A DNA stretch of 25,695 nt, taken from the IMG/VR virus record IMGVR_UViG_3300044646_001479, positions 1-25,695 of that record; one strand, written 5' to 3'. The notes under the pieces were generated by a model, which was given only the letters and a program-made list of their open reading frames with translations, was not told the origin of the DNA and searched no databases. Origin of the DNA: a virus. How positions within the stretch are numbered: the first letter of the stretch is position 1; each line of letters begins with the position of its first letter. Positions 4,996 to 25,695 of this stretch are shown one piece after another. The translations under genes and the position numbers were made by a program.

Positions 4996-5832
4996 TCAGT
5001 CAATCGAAACAAGCACGGGTGTCTGGGGAGCGTGCTGCCGCACCTGGCCCCAGTCGATGTAGGCCTGGGCGGCGAGCGACGCCGTCCGGTGGCCCAGGTG
5101 GATAGTCGCCTTGCCGGGCGAGGCGATCTCGATGTGAGTCGCCCCGCTCCTGCGCAGGAACTTGGAAGTCCCAGGCAGGCCGCATGCGTCCAGGTGGAGC
5201 CGCATCAGCCGCATCGCCTGGCGAGGCTTGCAGGCCCAGCCCAGGATCCGCCCGTCGGGCGAGTCCTTCAGCATGCCGCGGCAGGCGGCCACGCAGGCCG
5301 GCGAGAGCAACTTCACGATGCCGTCGCCGGTCTTCGACTGCGTCCACCTGAGAACGTCGCCGTCGAGGTTGTCGCCGGTGAGCCTCCACAGGTCGCCGTG
5401 GCGGCTCCCGCACTCGTAGCCCAGGAGCATCCACGTTCGCAGCAAAAGCCCCTTGTCGGCCAAGCTGCGAAGCCTGCGGCCGTCGTGGGCGTGGGTCTGC
5501 TCGATCCCGTGTCGCAGTTGCTCCACGGTCCAGGCCCGCGTGGGTGGCTTGCGAGCCTTGACCCGCATCACGCCGCGCGGCAGCTCGTCCACGAGCCCCT
5601 GCTCGTAGGCGTCACGCCAGAGCGACATCAGAATCGTCCGCTCACTGCGGACCGTGACCGCCGACACCTGTTCGAGGCGGCGGCGGAGGTACGCGTTGAT
5701 CCGCTCGGCCGAGATCGTGGAGACCCGGCCGGCGATCCGCTTCACGTTGCCCTGGTGGGCTGCGCTCACGGACCGCTGGGACAGGTACTTCTTCGCCACG
5801 ACCGAGAACGTGAGGATTTCAGGTCGTGGCAT
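4996..5832 (-). CDS. Tyrosine recombinase, operon copy with altered box II
   Basis: A 278-residue protein with an N-terminal SAM-like core-binding domain (about 8-95) and a C-terminal catalytic domain. Visible motifs: GYECGSRHGDLWRL with the first Arg (R144), QSKTG with the beta-strand Lys (K167), KFLRRSGATH (R227), HLGHRT (H248) and the nucleophile region AYIDW (Y258). The first His of the usual HxLR motif is Lys here (K224). Unusually it is not near an att region but inside the recombination operon, overlapping the Sak4-like gene by 14 nt. It may resolve phage or plasmid-like dimers rather than integrate. Second integrase of the window lies at 8618. Confidence 0.85.
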   Translation of the reverse strand: MPRPEILTFSVVAKKYLSQRSVSAAHQGNVKRIAGRVSTISAERINAYLRRRLEQVSAVTVRSERTILMSLWRDAYEQGLVDELPRGVMRVKARKPPTRAWTVEQLRHGIEQTHAHDGRRLRSLADKGLLLRTWMLLGYECGSRHGDLWRLTGDNLDGDVLRWTQSKTGDGIVKLLSPACVAACRGMLKDSPDGRILGWACKPRQAMRLMRLHLDACGLPGTSKFLRRSGATHIEIASPGKATIHLGHRTASLAAQAYIDWGQVRQHAPQTPVLVSID

Positions 5833-8350: not shown

Positions 8351-8617
8351 TGCCATAGCCTCCGATGCTAGGGGTGGCGCTGCTCCATTCAAGCCCGCAG
8401 CCCGCTTGCCTTGCGGCATGCGGGCTGCGTAGCCTTCTCTGGCCTCCGGTTGCGTCCCCGACGGGATCGCAACGTTCGGCAGTGGCGGGGACGGGACGCA
8501 ACTCCCGCGACCAACCGTGCGGCGGCCAACCGGAACCGGCGGAAAAACGGGAACCCGGCCACGGAGGGGCGACACCGCATGGAAGCGTGACCTATCCCCT
8601 AGTTGGAGGTTCACGCC
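8351..8617. promoter_or_regulatory. Divergent int/xis intergenic region, attP candidate
   Basis: The 267 bp between the divergent excisionase-like and integrase genes hold no gene. They carry dense repeats: the stem at 8396-8429, a 10-bp inverted repeat GTTGCGTCCC at 8449-8458 with GGGACGCAAC at 8493-8502, a competing inner pair GTCCCCG and CGGGGAC, and direct repeats CCAACCG at 8511 and 8526, 15 bp apart. This organisation fits arm-type sites, operators or attP. No core sequence can be identified without a host junction. Confidence 0.45.
8396..8429. repeat. Perfect 10-bp inverted repeat with inner stem
   Basis: CGCAGCCCGC and GCGGGCTGCG are exact inverse complements around T-TGCC-TTGC-GGCA-T, whose TGCC/GGCA can pair as well, so the whole 34 nt can fold as a long hairpin or serve as a symmetric protein site. 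No T-run follows on either strand, so a simple intrinsic terminator is not supported. Its place between divergent int and xis-like genes favours a binding site. Confidence 0.7.
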
Positions 8618-9517
8618 ATGACGCTCAACGCTTTTCTCGAAACTATCTACGTGCCGCTCCGGCTCCGGGGCCGCTCCCAGGAAAGTGTCCGACTCCTGAA
8701 GCATGCCGTCACCCAGTTCAGCCGGTGGCTCGGCCGGCCGGCCCTGCTCGAGGATCTCGACGACCTGGTCGTCTCGCAGTGGCTCACGACCCGCGGCCAG
8801 AAACTGTCCCCGAACTCCGTCGCCCGTGAGAGGAGCGGGATCCTGGCCCTGTGGAACTTCGCCCAGGCCCGCGGGCTCGTGAAGCTGCGGCCGGCCGTCG
8901 CACCGGAGCTGATCCCGGAGCGGGTGCCGCGGGCGTTCACGGCCGACGAGCTGGCGCGGCTCGCCGCCTCGGCCCGGCAGGCGAGCGGGTGGGTCGGGCC
9001 GGTGCCGGCGAGCGTGTTCTTCCCGGCCCTCGTCGCCGTCGGCCTGGAGACCGGCGAGCGGATCAACGCGATCCTCTCGACGCCGCGGCATTGCTGGAAC
9101 CGGCCCACGCTAACGGTCCCTGCGGGCGTCAGGAAGGGCCGCCGCCAGGAGCGGGTGTACGAGCTGTCCCCGGAGGCATCGGACCTGGTGGACCGCGTCA
9201 CGGCCCACACGGGGCCGACGGTCTTCTGGTGGATGGCTTCCGGGACGGCATTGCGGAAGCGATGGAAGACGATCACGAGGCGGGCCGGCCTCGGGGACGG
9301 CCGCGAGGTCCAGTTCCACGCCCTGCGGCGGTCGACCGCGTCGCACCTGGCGGCGGCCGGCCTCGACGCGACGGCGTTCCTCGGCCACTCGTCCGACCGG
9401 ATCACTCGCCGGAGCTACCTCGACCCTCGCGTGGTCGACGCCCGCCGGCCGAAGGCCTGGCAGGCGATGCCGCGGATCTTCAAGCCCGACGAGGATCCGC
9501 CGGCCAAAACGGCGTAG
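8618..9517 (+). CDS. int: Phage integrase, tyrosine recombinase
   Basis: A 299-residue tyrosine recombinase and the only rightward gene. An N-terminal core-binding domain (about 1-95) precedes a catalytic domain with all motifs: GLETGERINAIL (R148), VRKGRRQ (K173), FHALRRST (H234, R237), FLGHSSD (H257) and SYLDPR (nucleophile Y267). Integration and excision of the phage genome at att sites is the expected function. GGAGG at 8 nt selects the ATG used; an in-frame TTG five codons earlier overlaps the ribosome site. It is convergent with the MazG-like gene and divergent from the excisionase-like gene. Confidence 0.92.
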   Translation: MTLNAFLETIYVPLRLRGRSQESVRLLKHAVTQFSRWLGRPALLEDLDDLVVSQWLTTRGQKLSPNSVARERSGILALWNFAQARGLVKLRPAVAPELIPERVPRAFTADELARLAASARQASGWVGPVPASVFFPALVAVGLETGERINAILSTPRHCWNRPTLTVPAGVRKGRRQERVYELSPEASDLVDRVTAHTGPTVFWWMASGTALRKRWKTITRRAGLGDGREVQFHALRRSTASHLAAAGLDATAFLGHSSDRITRRSYLDPRVVDARRPKAWQAMPRIFKPDEDPPAKTA

Positions 9518-21773: not shown

Positions 21774-22037
21774 TCAGAGCCCTCGTGCGTGGTCGATCAG
21801 TGGGAAGCCGTCGTCGCCGATGGTCGGGGCCTGGACGAGCCGGGCGTCCTGGCGAGCTGCCGGCGGCGGCGGGTCGGCGAACGCGGCGATCCAGAGGAGG
21901 TTCTTCGCGGCCCTGGCAATCCACGTCAGGACCGGCCGGTCGGGCGGGCCAGGGCGTGGCGAGCGGTCGCCGGCGAGCCAGTAGCCGATCGCCGCCGCGG
22001 CCAGGATGACGAACACCGTGTTCTTGTCGAGTCTCAT
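21774..22037 (-). CDS. Small membrane protein
   Basis: An 87-residue protein with one hydrophobic helix at about 7-23 (TVFVILAAAAIGYWLAG), then a Pro/Arg stretch and a second amphipathic region (LTWIARAAKNLLWIAAF). It overlaps the protease gene by 4 nt (ATGA) and ends 2 nt before the next start. Probable inner-membrane protein of unknown function within the inserted block. Confidence 0.65.
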   Translation of the reverse strand: MRLDKNTVFVILAAAAIGYWLAGDRSPRPGPPDRPVLTWIARAAKNLLWIAAFADPPPPAARQDARLVQAPTIGDDGFPLIDHARGL

Positions 22038-23131
22038 CGAATCACCTCAGTCGGGGCCGGCGTCAGAAACGCGCCGTTGTCGAGATCACGCCAGCCGAAT
22101 CCGGAGACCGAGCCGACCGCGTAGCTGTCGGGCTGACTGCCGAGCATGCGGTCCACTGTAGAGCGAGTCACCCAGAAGGAGCCCTCCGGCATGTCGTCGG
22201 GCCACTTCGGGCCGGAGATCCATCGCGGCCCCCAGGAGTTGAGGCAGAGCAGGGCATCGGACGGCGATCCGTTCTTCGCGTAGCGGACCGCCACGAAGCA
22301 CATGCAGTGTGCCCACTGGCCGGAAGCCCTCGCGTAGGCGTGCTGGTCCCTTGCGCTTTCGAACCCGACCATCGAACAGACCGGGATCGGGAACCCGGCC
22401 TCGATCGCGGCGGCGGCCTCCGCGAACGTCTTGACCATCGCGACATGCGTGGCCGGATGCTTCTTCGCGATCGTGTCGAGCTTGCCGCCGTCGCCCTTGC
22501 CGCCGTTGCCGTAGGCTCCCCACGACTTCGCCCGGTCGGCCGAGTAGGCCCGCAGGTCGTGGCCGCCCACCGGCTCGCGGTAGACGACGCCCCAGTCCCG
22601 AACCCATCGGGCCGCGGCTGCGCCGTAGCTGCCGTCGGAGTAGCCGCCGACCGGCGAGCTGCCGTCACCGGATCGCCCGCGGGCCTCGACGCGGGAGCCT
22701 CCGTAGATCGCCTCGGTCGACGGGAACGGCGGCGGCATCGGCAGGCGACCGGTCTCCCAGTCGATGCACTGGGCAACCCAGACGCCGTGAGCCCAGCCCC
22801 ACGAGACGCAGTCGCCGATGCCCTGCCGCTCAACGATCCACGGCCGACCGTAGAGGGCCTGGTGTGCCTTGTAGGCCGCACGGTAGAGGAACGTGTCGTG
22901 TCCCTTCGCCTCGCGGATCGTCTCGGCTCCGGCCTGCCTGAACAGCGGCTGGGGCAGCTCCTGCAGGAACCGCTCGACGCCCTCGGGGTCGGGCGTCCAT
23001 CCGGTCGGGGCCTCGTCGCCAATCCAGCCGGCCGGCCTGGGGCCGGCGACGAACTCGCCGACGATCACGGCGAACGCGATCCCCAGGAAGCCGGCCAGCG
23101 CGAGCCAGCGGTAGGTGTTGCGGCGGCTCAT
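22034..23131 (-). CDS. Membrane-anchored papain-like (C1-type) cysteine peptidase
   Basis: A 365-residue protein with an N-terminal signal anchor (MSRRNTYRWLALAGFLGIAF, helix about 9-29). The peptidase domain has the papain landmarks: QGIGDCVSWGWAHG (Q103 oxyanion Gln, C108 nucleophile), GQWAHCMCFVAVRY (H275) and LLCLNSWGPRW (N298 with W300), plus the closing EGSFWVTRSTVDRML. Gly-rich spacing between Cys and His is as expected. Peptide-bond hydrolysis is therefore likely, outside the membrane. It sits within a block of membrane genes between the prohead protease and capsid genes. It could be a lysis or envelope-degrading enzyme, or a virion protease; the window does not decide. Confidence 0.85.
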   Translation of the reverse strand: MSRRNTYRWLALAGFLGIAFAVIVGEFVAGPRPAGWIGDEAPTGWTPDPEGVERFLQELPQPLFRQAGAETIREAKGHDTFLYRAAYKAHQALYGRPWIVERQGIGDCVSWGWAHGVWVAQCIDWETGRLPMPPPFPSTEAIYGGSRVEARGRSGDGSSPVGGYSDGSYGAAAARWVRDWGVVYREPVGGHDLRAYSADRAKSWGAYGNGGKGDGGKLDTIAKKHPATHVAMVKTFAEAAAAIEAGFPIPVCSMVGFESARDQHAYARASGQWAHCMCFVAVRYAKNGSPSDALLCLNSWGPRWISGPKWPDDMPEGSFWVTRSTVDRMLGSQPDSYAVGSVSGFGWRDLDNGAFLTPAPTEVIR

Positions 23132-23694
23132 TTCGCGGCGGCCTCCGCGGCGGCGGCGACCTCGCGATAGGCCGCGATCCACGTGGCCCGCTGCTCCGGC
23201 GTCAGCGGCTTCCCGCTCGTGCCGGCCACGCGGTCGAGGTAGTCCTTCACGGCGGACCGGACCCGCGGGTGGCGGTCGCCGATCGAGTCACCGCGGAGTC
23301 GGAGATCGAACGCCCGGACCCGAAGGTCGTCGAACGCCACGCCGCTCGTGACGATCGGCGTCGACTGCATGGCGTCCCACTCGACCTCGCCGGCCAGCTC
23401 GCCGAACAGGGCCGCGAGCTTCGCCGCGTCTGAGGCGGCCTCGGGGTGGGCGTTGAACAGGCCACGCAGCACGAGCGGGGCGTCGGGGGCCGGCGGGGCC
23501 GGCGTCGGCTCCGTGCGATTGCGGCCCGACCAGACGAGGGCCAGGGCGGCGAGCAGGCCAGCCCCGACGACGTGCCGCAGCTCGACAGACGGCAGCTTCG
23601 CGTGGGCCACGGTCACGAGCTGCTCGAGGCGGTCGCGACCCAGGAACGCGTAGGCCGCCCCGGCGGCCAGGGCAACCAGGAGGAGCGTGTCCAT
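23128..23694 (-). CDS. Two-helix membrane protein
   Basis: A 188-residue protein with hydrophobic helices at about 3-20 (TLLLVALAAGAAYAFLG) and 41-58 (HVVGAGLLAALALVWSG), a Pro-rich linker (TEPTPAPPAPDAP) and a helical C-terminal domain of 110 residues (AKLAALFGELAGEVEWDAMQ; TPEQRATWIAAYREVAAAAE). It overlaps the papain-like gene's start by 4 nt (ATGA), so the two are translationally coupled. No family recognised; the two helices and location next to a membrane peptidase suggest a partner in the same envelope process. Confidence 0.65.
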   Translation of the reverse strand: MDTLLLVALAAGAAYAFLGRDRLEQLVTVAHAKLPSVELRHVVGAGLLAALALVWSGRNRTEPTPAPPAPDAPLVLRGLFNAHPEAASDAAKLAALFGELAGEVEWDAMQSTPIVTSGVAFDDLRVRAFDLRLRGDSIGDRHPRVRSAVKDYLDRVAGTSGKPLTPEQRATWIAAYREVAAAAEAAAK

Positions 23695-23695
23695 G

Positions 23696-24067
23696 TCAGA
23701 CCCTCACGAGTGGCAGCAGTTGCTCGATGGCACCGGCGGCGATCGCGATCACGAGCGACCGCACCGGCGAGCGGACGAGAATCCAGAGCGGGTACACGGC
23801 GGCCGGGACCGCCTGGTCGGCGACCGCGTCGAACAGGCTCGCCACGGCCGACAGCGCGAGGGCCTTCTTCTCGGGGCCGGTCATCGACGAGACCGTGTCG
23901 AGAGCGGTCACGACGAGCCGCAGGAGGGCGAGCATCAGCTCGCCGAACTCCGCCCAGGTGATGCCGCCGGCGGCCGCGGACCTCGAGGTCTCGACGAACG
24001 CGGCGATCTTCGCGAGGAGGCCGTCCTCCAGATTGGTGGCGGCAGCGACCGGGGCGGCGGCGATCAT
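23696..24067 (-). CDS. Holin-like or other small membrane protein
   Basis: A 123-residue protein: an N-terminal amphipathic helix (LEDGLLAKIAAFVETSRSAA), then FGELMLALLRLVVTALDTVS, a turn with GPEKKALALSAVASLFDAVA, and a hydrophobic C-terminal helix (YPLWILVRSPVRSLVIAIAA). Two or three helices with a charged P-E-K-K turn resemble some class of phage holins, but this is not diagnostic. Its ATG overlaps the zinc-ribbon stop (ATGA). Placed in the block of membrane genes beside the peptidase, a lysis role would be natural but is only inferred. Confidence 0.5.
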   Translation of the reverse strand: MIAAAPVAAATNLEDGLLAKIAAFVETSRSAAAGGITWAEFGELMLALLRLVVTALDTVSSMTGPEKKALALSAVASLFDAVADQAVPAAVYPLWILVRSPVRSLVIAIAAGAIEQLLPLVRV

Positions 24068-24219
24068 CGGGTTCGTCTCCAGACGGCATCGGCCGGCACC
24101 ACCTGGCGGCGGCGCTCGCGGCACTTCTGACACTCCACGTAGCGGACCTGGCGGTCGCCGGCCCGCTTGCTCGACTCGACGCGGAGGCGGCCCCCGCACT
24201 TCTGGCAACTAGCCGGCAT
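24064..24219 (-). CDS. Small zinc-ribbon protein (Com-like)
   Basis: A 51-residue protein: MPASCQKCGGRLRVESSKRA, then RQVRYVECQKCRERRRQVVP, with two CxxC pairs (C5, C8 and C30, C33) for one zinc. The basic residues round the second pair fit RNA or DNA binding, as in Com-type phage regulators and other short zinc ribbons. The start ATG overlaps the end of the prohead protease gene by 11 nt. It could control translation of the neighbouring genes; function not proven. Confidence 0.7.
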   Translation of the reverse strand: MPASCQKCGGRLRVESSKRAGDRQVRYVECQKCRERRRQVVPADAVWRRTR

Positions 24220-25192
24220 GGGCTCGCATCCTCGCGACTGCTGCCGCGGCTGCGGCCCGGGCACCGGCGAGCGACGAGACCGTCAGCGACCGCGGGGCGG
24301 GCTCGATTGCCGGGATCTTCTCCGGCGAGTCGTCGATCCACACGTCGATCTCAACGCCGGCGTCCTGGGCGGCCGACCGCTTTTGCTGGTCTGGCCCGCA
24401 CAGCAGGACGCCGGCTAGCTCGGTGTACAGCTCGCCGAACGCGAGCCGCAGCTCGTGGCGGTTGGCCTCGGTGTCCTCGCGTCGCGTGATGCACCACACG
24501 CGCGACCCGCGGCCCGTGGCATCGGCCACGAACGACCGCCACAGGCCGGGGGCTGCGGTGAACGTCTGGTCGAAGTCGAGCGAGATCGTCAGCGACCGAT
24601 CGGCCTGGCCGTGATTGACCATGCCGCGGGCGGCACGCCACGCGTCGAGGGATCGCGGAGCGATCGAGCTGGACGGGTAGGCCGGGTTCGTGACTGCGGA
24701 GATGTCATAGAGCCCGGAGGCCTGGTGGACGAGCCGCGTGATGCCGCCGCGCTCGTCCTCGGTCCAGCTTTCGCCGCCGTCGGCCACCGTGAACGCGAAC
24801 GACGAGCCGGTGATCGTCCGGTCCTCGACCATCATCACGAGATCCCGGCCGTCGCTTGTCAGGAGCGGCGTATGCCGGAAGGCCAGCCCGCGGGCGTCCT
24901 TCCGCAGCTCGAGGCGGCCGTTGGACGTGCGGCCGGTGATCCGGCTCGGGTCATGGTTGAACAGGAACGGAACGTCGATTTTGCCGCGCGGGTCGTTTGG
25001 CTTCCGGTCGACCAGGCCGTCGAAGGCGGTCGGCGAGAACTTCTCGCGGAAGCCTCCGAGATCGACGGAGAGCGAATCCCACGGCGGCGAGATGCCGACG
25101 AGCGCGGCCGGCTCGCCGTCCCGCTTCTCGACGCCGATCGCGTCGGGCGTGTCGGTGGTCAGGAGGTAGCGGCGCTCAACTTGTTGCGACAT
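24209..25192 (-). CDS. Prohead protease fused to a HAD-type phosphatase domain
   Basis: A 327-residue two-domain protein. Residues 1-180 are an HK97-type (U35) prohead protease: FNHDPSRITGRT (H80), ITGSSFAFTV (S131), LYDISAVTNPAYP (D163). Residues 200-295 read as a HAD hydrolase: SLDFDQTFTAAP (D206, D208, T210, motif I DxDxT), VWCITRRE (T236, motif II), QQKRSAA (K271, motif III) and DVWIDDSPEKI (D287, D288, motif IV). An Ala-rich tail follows. The protease should cleave the capsid scaffold domain; the HAD domain would remove phosphates. A fusion of these two is uncommon. The start ATG follows the portal stop with 17-nt overlap. Confidence 0.88.
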   Translation of the reverse strand: MSQQVERRYLLTTDTPDAIGVEKRDGEPAALVGISPPWDSLSVDLGGFREKFSPTAFDGLVDRKPNDPRGKIDVPFLFNHDPSRITGRTSNGRLELRKDARGLAFRHTPLLTSDGRDLVMMVEDRTITGSSFAFTVADGGESWTEDERGGITRLVHQASGLYDISAVTNPAYPSSSIAPRSLDAWRAARGMVNHGQADRSLTISLDFDQTFTAAPGLWRSFVADATGRGSRVWCITRREDTEANRHELRLAFGELYTELAGVLLCGPDQQKRSAAQDAGVEIDVWIDDSPEKIPAIEPAPRSLTVSSLAGARAAAAAAVARMRAHAG

Positions 25193-25695
25193 CGTCGTCC
25201 TCCTGGCCGATCGGGTCGGCCGACAGCTCGGAAACACGCTTACCGACCGTGAACTCCGTCGGCTCGCCGTCCTCGTAGACCCGCAGGCTGGCGGCCGGGT
25301 CGGCCTCGGTCGCGGCGATCGAGAACGGCGACCCCTCGACGCCCAGGACGCCGTCGATCATCAGATGCTCGATCGTGCCCTCGCCCCCGGCCCAGTAGAC
25401 GTACTGGCCTTCGCGGAAGCCGCCGGCCTCCGGCACGCCGGCCCCGGGTGCCCGGGCGGGCTCATCGGCCGGAGCCTCCACCGGGGCAGGCTCGGCTGGC
25501 GGCTCGCCTTCAGGCGGCGCGACCGTGGCGGCTGCGGCGTTGGCGAGCGTCGAGAATCCGAGCTGCATGTAGGTTTCGTCGGCCGCCGGATCGGGCAGCA
25601 GATCGAAGTCCTCGAGGTCTCGCAGCTCGTTCGGTGCCAGCGCCCCCATGTTGAACATCGACTGGTAGAGCTGGACGCGGCTGGCGGTGTCGCCG
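25176..25695 (-). CDS. Portal protein C-terminus, partial
   Basis: The frame is open to the right edge of the window, so the N-terminal part lies outside. The visible part starts with DTASRVQLYQSMFNMGALAPNEL followed by LEDFDLLPDP, the typical ending of phage portal proteins (Q-S-x-x-x-x-G-x-L-x-P-N-E-x-R-x-L-E). A Pro/Ala/Glu linker follows, then a small domain GQYVYWAGGEGTIEHLMIDG and SLRVYEDGEPTEFTVGKRVS, similar to the tudor-like tail found on some portals. Portals form the dodecameric ring through which DNA enters the head. Its stop overlaps the protease start by 17 nt. The internal ATG at 25658 is not the real start. Confidence 0.82.
   Translation of the reverse strand, partial: GDTASRVQLYQSMFNMGALAPNELRDLEDFDLLPDPAADETYMQLGFSTLANAAAATVAPPEGEPPAEPAPVEAPADEPARAPGAGVPEAGGFREGQYVYWAGGEGTIEHLMIDGVLGVEGSPFSIAATEADPAASLRVYEDGEPTEFTVGKRVSELSADPIGQEDDDVATS

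Follow-up and report, generated by a model that had tools for sequence, protein, structure and literature searches.

A prohead protease fused to a predicted mini-HAD domain in a freshwater phage group, a possible route for an enzyme into the phage head

We describe a phage gene whose product consists of three parts, namely an S78 prohead protease, a predicted cap-less HAD fold and an Ala/Arg-rich tail. The fusion is a trait of a freshwater phage group, and the most likely reading, which we hold with reserve, is that the HAD domain is an enzyme cargo, which stands between the catalytic core and a targeting tail and would be loaded into the procapsid together with the protease. The window analysed here is a complete virus record of IMG/VR (25,695 bases), and on its minus strand the gene runs as a single frame from an ATG at 25192 to a stop at 24211–24209 (327 aa), with no internal stop or frame change. 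The features used below are as follows (window coordinates, with the basis of each assignment in parentheses).

24209–25192, minus strand: protease–HAD fusion gene, 327 aa (frame read; one conserved frame in 246 of 258 loci)
25199–25204, minus strand: Shine-Dalgarno-like AGGAGG, 6 nt 5' of the ATG of the fusion gene (sequence reading)
24653–25102, minus strand: S78 protease core, residues 31–180, with H80, S131 and D163 (profiles, T4 gp21 fold with Z 11.5, residue counts)
24593–24652, minus strand: linker 1, residues 181–200, a region of recombination breakpoints (breakpoints near residue 180; median dN/dS 0.81)
24314–24592, minus strand: predicted mini-HAD domain, residues 201–293, with D206, D208, T210, T236, K271, D287 and D288 (phrog_4919/4256, models, structure matches, residue counts)
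24287–24313, minus strand: linker 2, residues 294–302 (variable length; pLDDT below 50 at 297–308)
24212–24286, minus strand: Ala/Arg-rich C-terminal tail, residues 303–327, a proposed prohead-targeting signal (lowest median dN/dS, 0.20; predicted helix 308–326; conserved columns)
25176–25694, minus strand: portal gene, 3' part; overlaps the fusion gene at its start (phrog_12 portal, E=3.7e-8)
20179–21375, minus strand: major capsid protein of HK97 type (PF05065, E=2.3e-26; TIGR01554)

Several other frames of the window deserve mention. The stop of the fusion gene is overlapped by a 51-aa frame (24064–24219, minus strand), which has two CxxC and reads as zinc-ribbon-like. Two frames judged by eye (4996–5832, minus strand, and 8603–9517, plus strand) are tyrosine-recombinase-like, and with these candidate recombinases the phage would be temperate. 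Between the protease and capsid genes, a 382-aa protein (22034–23182, minus strand) presents the papain-like Cys/His/Asn motif order (GDCVSWG, WAHCMCF, LNSWG); the three residues are conserved in nine rows of a ten-row alignment including the window, the tenth row being gapped, and searches of Pfam, PHROG and PDB sequences gave no match for this protein.

The initial annotation of this DNA had placed a protease and a HAD in one open frame, and this is confirmed by the minus-strand frame given above. It had also pointed to a sequencing error joining two genes as one circumstance that would overturn it. Such a joint by sequencing or assembly error can be dismissed for practical purposes; the window is an IMG/VR record and single assemblies can contain errors, but 95 distinct full-length proteins, representing 222 full-length loci from many metagenomes, have this frame, as does a contig of a Planctomycetaceae MAG, and this also answers the earlier suggestion that the same fusion be sought in other genomes. 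The IMG/VR searches, whose loci overlap, used the whole protein (61 loci), the C-terminal part (best 80 of 155), a protease profile (best 80 of 574) and a HAD profile (best 80 of 533); because only the best-scoring loci were returned, the fused and unfused counts that follow are not population frequencies. Both domains lie in one frame in 100 of the 107 loci composed of the window record and those of the whole-protein and best C-terminal-part searches, and the 258 first-round loci comprise 246 fused, nine with the protease only and three with the HAD only; on these counts and the 95 distinct proteins, we have rejected a chance frame or a sequencing join. Seven of the nine protease-only loci are cut by the DNA end, and the remaining L059 and L161 are one contig; among the three HAD-only loci, one (L106) is cut and the other two (L062 and L258) are genuine standalone HADs. 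When the search was keyed on the protease, 76 of the best 80 (of 574) were fused, three cut and one unfused, and a search keyed on the unfused L059 gave 17 loci, including eight fused, one cut, L059 itself and seven distant proteases without this HAD.

Among named phages, 415 records match the full protein and none covers 80% of it; among the 60 listed of 338 HAD-matching records of deposited phages, the match never falls on a protease annotation, and no report of a protease–HAD fusion was found in the open-licence literature. A natural fusion of an S78 protease is described in PMC6563490, and its partner there is the major capsid protein and not an enzyme. As a separate observation, the S78 frames of L287 and L302, from Planctomycetota-phylum genomes, continue by reading into major-capsid-like sequence. 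A full fusion with 70% identity is located on a 40-kb contig of the Planctomycetaceae MAG, largely colinear with the window. Since the HAD was found in 1 of 392 Planctomycetota genomes, this being the MAG genome already found, the host link rests on this one contig.

Residues 31–180 match Pfam Peptidase_S78 (PF04586) with E=3e-29 and 102.7 bits against a cut-off of 21, and the protease part also matches TIGR01543 (E=4.7e-19, 69 bits against a cut-off of 59) and phrog_80, head maturation protease (E=4.9e-34). The full AlphaFold model of the fusion protein (mean pLDDT 79.6) matches T4 gp21 (5jbl) with a Foldseek E of 1.7e-4 and Z 11.5 over 144 aligned residues, and herpesvirus proteases more weakly (Z 5.4–6.8); a sequence search of solved structures gave no credible relative of the protease or the HAD. 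In the 95 distinct full-length proteins, H80 is kept in 94 and S131 and D163 in all, and we take these three residues to be the catalytic triad. The prohead-protease landmarks noticed in the initial annotation therefore stand, with S78 profiles above their cut-offs and H80, S131 and D163 conserved. Judged from its sequence, the protease part is an S78 (HK97-type) prohead protease, with a predicted cleavage of the capsid protein or itself. It resembles the HK97-family prohead proteases (PF04586/TIGR01543) in the protease core, the H/S/D positions and the procapsid/herpes protease fold, as well as in gene order, with the portal gene before it and an HK97-type capsid gene downstream; it differs from them in having a HAD domain ahead of the C-terminal tail and in the several genes that stand between the protease and capsid genes. 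Distant S78 proteases (L268–L274) have frames of about 600–840 aa in which the motif RGFCPTGPGGG-DNSCGG is repeated, and they have a basic C-terminus in common; their long extensions are possibly other cargo architectures.

Motifs I–IV of HAD proteins are DxDxT, T/S, K and DD, and the domain after linker 1 presents them in order as D206-x-D208-x-T210, T236, K271 and D287-D288, just as had been read at first. D206, D208, T210 and D287 are each found in all 95 distinct full-length proteins, K271 and D288 in 94, and position 236 is T in 68 and S in 27. The K271 exception is L053, a frameshifted copy; in this locus (L053:2-2020) the frameshift breaks the HAD part and the frame continues into the following genes. 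A profile search of the C-terminal part, which had been proposed as a check, gave a divided answer: the curated HAD families of Pfam and NCBIfam matched none of 38 members, residues 201–298 matched phrog_4919 (E=8e-17) and phrog_4256 (E=4.7e-15), both without annotated function, and no credible non-HAD family appeared. At E up to 10, weak matches were found to PF14417 MEDS in 27 of the 38 members (best E=7e-4) and to GP46 in four of them, which look like chance matches.

The fold was examined with models of the domain alone and of the full protein. With the HAD-only model (pLDDT 90.8, pTM 0.83), the best Foldseek matches in PDB are HAD phosphatases at E of about 0.01, interspersed with universal stress and receiver proteins, and VIA-align gave Z 7.3 for the T4 Pnkp phosphatase, 7.1 for MDP-1 and 7.0 for a universal stress protein, values that do not separate the folds. 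The full model ranks class C acid phosphatases, together with a relative, first over residues 175–295 (Z 8.0–8.9, 114–116 aligned residues), ahead of T4 Pnkp (Z 7.8) and AphA (Z 7.7). Structure prediction, another check proposed earlier, was in favour of the HAD. When the HAD was compared with viral models, the ten best Foldseek matches (E 7e-7 to 5e-4) were small proteins, one of them named HAD-like; weaker matches (E 0.01–0.05) to stretches of proteins from uncultured phages that bear the names XkdF and Prohead protease hint, on model comparison, at other protease–HAD fusions. A Rossmann-like fold other than a HAD phosphatase, for example of the receiver or universal-stress type, would agree with the lack of any curated HAD profile hit and with the receiver and universal stress proteins among the matches of the isolated domain; we nevertheless consider it highly improbable, because DxDxT, T/S, K and DD are conserved in HAD order, the best matches of the full model over 175–295 are the acid phosphatases and their relative, and family members in deposited phages are annotated as HAD-like domain protein. 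With no curated Pfam or NCBIfam HAD profile hit, the HAD call rests on motif order, the AlphaFold fold match and PHROG kin, and on these we read residues 201–293 as a predicted cap-less HAD fold with predicted phosphatase activity. The nearest solved folds are the class C acid phosphatases (H. influenzae e(P4), 3pct), AphA and the T4 Pnkp phosphatase domain (Z 7.5–8.9); these have 13–18% identity to the HAD and belong to other proteins and settings, and their substrate is not transferable.

There are many free-standing relatives of this domain, in agreement with the earlier remark that separate small HADs occur in phages. In deposited phages, the HAD matched 338 records (E up to 10) and a second query 437 (E up to 1), mostly hypothetical proteins among the matches listed. 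All seven standalone members tested against PHROGs match both phrog_4919 and phrog_4256, and in a ten-row alignment (A4) that includes seven standalone proteins, D, D, T, K and W-DD-P are invariant and the motif II threonine is almost so. The phrog_4919/4256 mini-HADs, such as phiEco32 gp47, rV5 ORF21 and those of Pakpunavirus and a Vibrio phage (HAD-like), have the same domain with DxDxT, T/S, K and W(I/V)DDxP, and differ in being free-standing small proteins, often amid early or DNA-metabolism genes. Of the five deposited-phage contexts that we read (Vibrio phage 1.139, phiEco32, rV5, Henu5 and pSal-SNUABM-01), that of Vibrio phage 1.139 has the HAD relative upstream of the terminase. An IMG/VR scan with A4 (best 80 of 526) gave mostly standalone HADs, and among 89 neighbouring frames chosen from 177 there were six P22-type portals (that of L313 and those of L343, L345, L348, L360 and L369, the latter five confirmed singly) and six metallophosphoesterases; other standalone HADs adjoin helicase, topoisomerase, exonuclease or terminase genes. 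By reading, the standalone HAD of L062 lies between terminase-like and portal-like frames. One contig carries a lambda-type portal (L370:698-2788; PF05136, 5.5e-46) with a C-terminal mini-HAD (phrog_4256, 3.2e-28 over 590–690), and a ClpP-type protease comes next; no portal–HAD fusion was found beyond this contig, the other 79 of 80 loci matching the portal part only. Defence-system models gave no match.

New in the present analysis, besides this tie of a related mini-HAD to portals, is that the catalytic cassette has been repeatedly exchanged at the domain joint with the HAD kept. Protease and HAD identities are loosely linked across pairs (Spearman 0.34): in A1, 33 pairs have a HAD at least 93% identical and a protease at most 65% identical, and a single pair shows the reverse, with a protease identity of 90% or more and a HAD identity of 75% or less. 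Between the window and L032, DNA identity is 90–100% over the portal as far as base 160 of the reversed window, 30–93% in the portal end and protease core, and 93–100% from residue ~180 on. Eight further pairs were profiled, and the identity step lies at residue ~180 in seven and ~200 in one (L024/L067), which brings to nine the pairs that break at the protease/HAD joint. Twelve rows have the second protease type, and placing this type on the HAD DNA tree takes 12 changes, at least eight of them forced by starred branches; each of the 12 records examined has one protease copy. From these identity steps, tree changes and single copies we conclude that a cassette of the portal C-terminus and protease core swaps between phages and the HAD stays. 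Phase variation between two protease alleles in one genome was considered and rejected on the 12 of 12 single-copy records, which may be incomplete. The papain-like gene is a second exchanged cassette of the same head cluster, since it is 61–63% identical to its counterparts in L032, L005 and L037 and the genes on either side are 89–100% identical.

Selective constraint is distributed unevenly along the fusion protein. Median pairwise dN/dS rises from 0.20 in the tail (303–323 as scored) through 0.38 in the HAD and 0.45 in the protease to 0.81 in linker 1; these are pairwise estimates on GC-rich DNA from pairs that are not independent. The tail, with a predicted helix at 308–326, is the most constrained stretch, and the HAD is placed between it and the catalytic core; the stretch 294–306 ranges from 7 to 24 residues in length across the aligned proteins compared. 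The unfused L059 has the same downstream neighbours as the fused loci, and its C-terminus is likewise an Ala-rich tail, similar in the last stretch. Its end-anchored score against the fused tail is reached by 0.14% of 20,000 shuffles and its free-position score by 2.1%, and its raw profile score is -18.6 bits, below background; on these values, common descent of the two tails is suggested, not proven. The occurrence of this close relative without a HAD, and of distant S78 proteases with quite different long extensions, would be expected if the HAD served chiefly a structural purpose, spacing the protease C-terminus or helping it to fold, and its catalysis no longer mattered; with all seven HAD catalytic positions kept in 94–95 of the 95 distinct proteins (T or S at position 236), we think this improbable. 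In the 2013 work of Duda, Oh and Hendrix on HK97 protease domains and encapsidation, protease C-terminal fragments or fusions reportedly bring foreign proteins into proheads. For a related protease, a published account states that the C-terminus likely carries a prohead-entry signal. By analogy, we propose the tail 303–327 as a candidate prohead-targeting signal; this conserved tail, absent from the initial annotation, gives the strongest hint of how the HAD would reach the head interior.

We next set out the cargo reading as a series of steps. The C-terminal tail would carry the fusion protein into the procapsid, and because the HAD sits between the catalytic core and the targeting tail, the position expected of cargo, each protease copy that enters would bring one HAD. 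Protease copies per head number about 60 in HK97 Prohead 1 and about 90 in D3 (PMC12749128). During maturation, the protease would probably cut the flexible linkers and release the HAD, which may then act on a phosphate ester. A nucleotide or nucleic-acid end is our guess for this substrate, from the nearest folds and the neighbours of standalone members. The HAD may act in the maturing head, or in a new host after ejection with the DNA; the initial annotation had favoured a dephosphorylation step tied to head assembly, and we regard a role after DNA ejection as equally likely. The initial interpretation is supported in part: one polypeptide with an S78 protease and a HAD-type fold is conserved across many genomes, and the phosphatase activity, procapsid location, self-cleavage and assembly role that it put forward are predictions. 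We rejected an internal start that would yield the HAD as a separate product, since an internal ATG with an SD-like motif was found in 10 of 53 and neither is conserved. This lack of a conserved internal start, together with the fusion itself, which holds the HAD at the stoichiometry and location of the protease, would also suit a HAD that is never free cargo and acts on the fusion protein itself or during assembly, in the cytoplasm or the pre-cleavage core, for example on a phosphorylated capsid or scaffold protein. Head proteins of these phages are not known to be phosphorylated, however, and the HAD has been kept while the adjacent protease core was swapped for one of ~55% identity, which indicates that it needs no contact with one particular protease; we therefore hold such a role to be rather unlikely.

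Enzyme cargo is favoured by the following evidence: the fusion and the catalytic residues of both enzymes are kept in the 95 distinct proteins; linker 1 varies freely and the HAD, the protease and above all the tail are constrained; there is no conserved internal start, and the unfused L059 has a similar Ala-rich tail; and related mini-HADs are tied to head genes, by the portal fusion of L370 and the six P22-type portal loci. Against it, many standalone relatives stand beside DNA-metabolism or early genes and not head genes, the portal fusion is on a single contig, no curated HAD profile is hit, and the L059 tail has the negative score given above. Enzymes fused to portal and MuF proteins are interpreted as virion cargo in a published survey (PMC5512222), and T4 Alt (PMC7411985) is likewise an enzyme joined or targeted to an internal head protein; the carrier here is the maturation protease, and cargo status is by analogy. 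A wider reading, which we offer tentatively and hold with clear doubt, is that the protease serves as a general loading vehicle with a swappable front cassette, a middle cargo slot and a fixed tail. The HAD would then be present in tens of copies per head, released by self-cleavage and, as an early effector, brought into the host along with the DNA, and the long extensions (~600–840 aa) of the distant S78 proteases would be other cargoes in the same slot.

If the cargo reading is true, the fusion would represent a natural and widespread use of the C-terminal protease route into proheads, a route reportedly exploited in engineered HK97 fusions. It would also supply a cargo enzyme and a carrier that are both defined, and a short tail as candidate targeting signal, all testable by HK97-type expression in the laboratory. 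That the core has been exchanged repeatedly at the joint suggests that head proteolysis is under selection of its own, apart from the cargo. The fusion further suggests a role for phrog_4919 and phrog_4256, which have no annotated function yet are present in many named coliphages.
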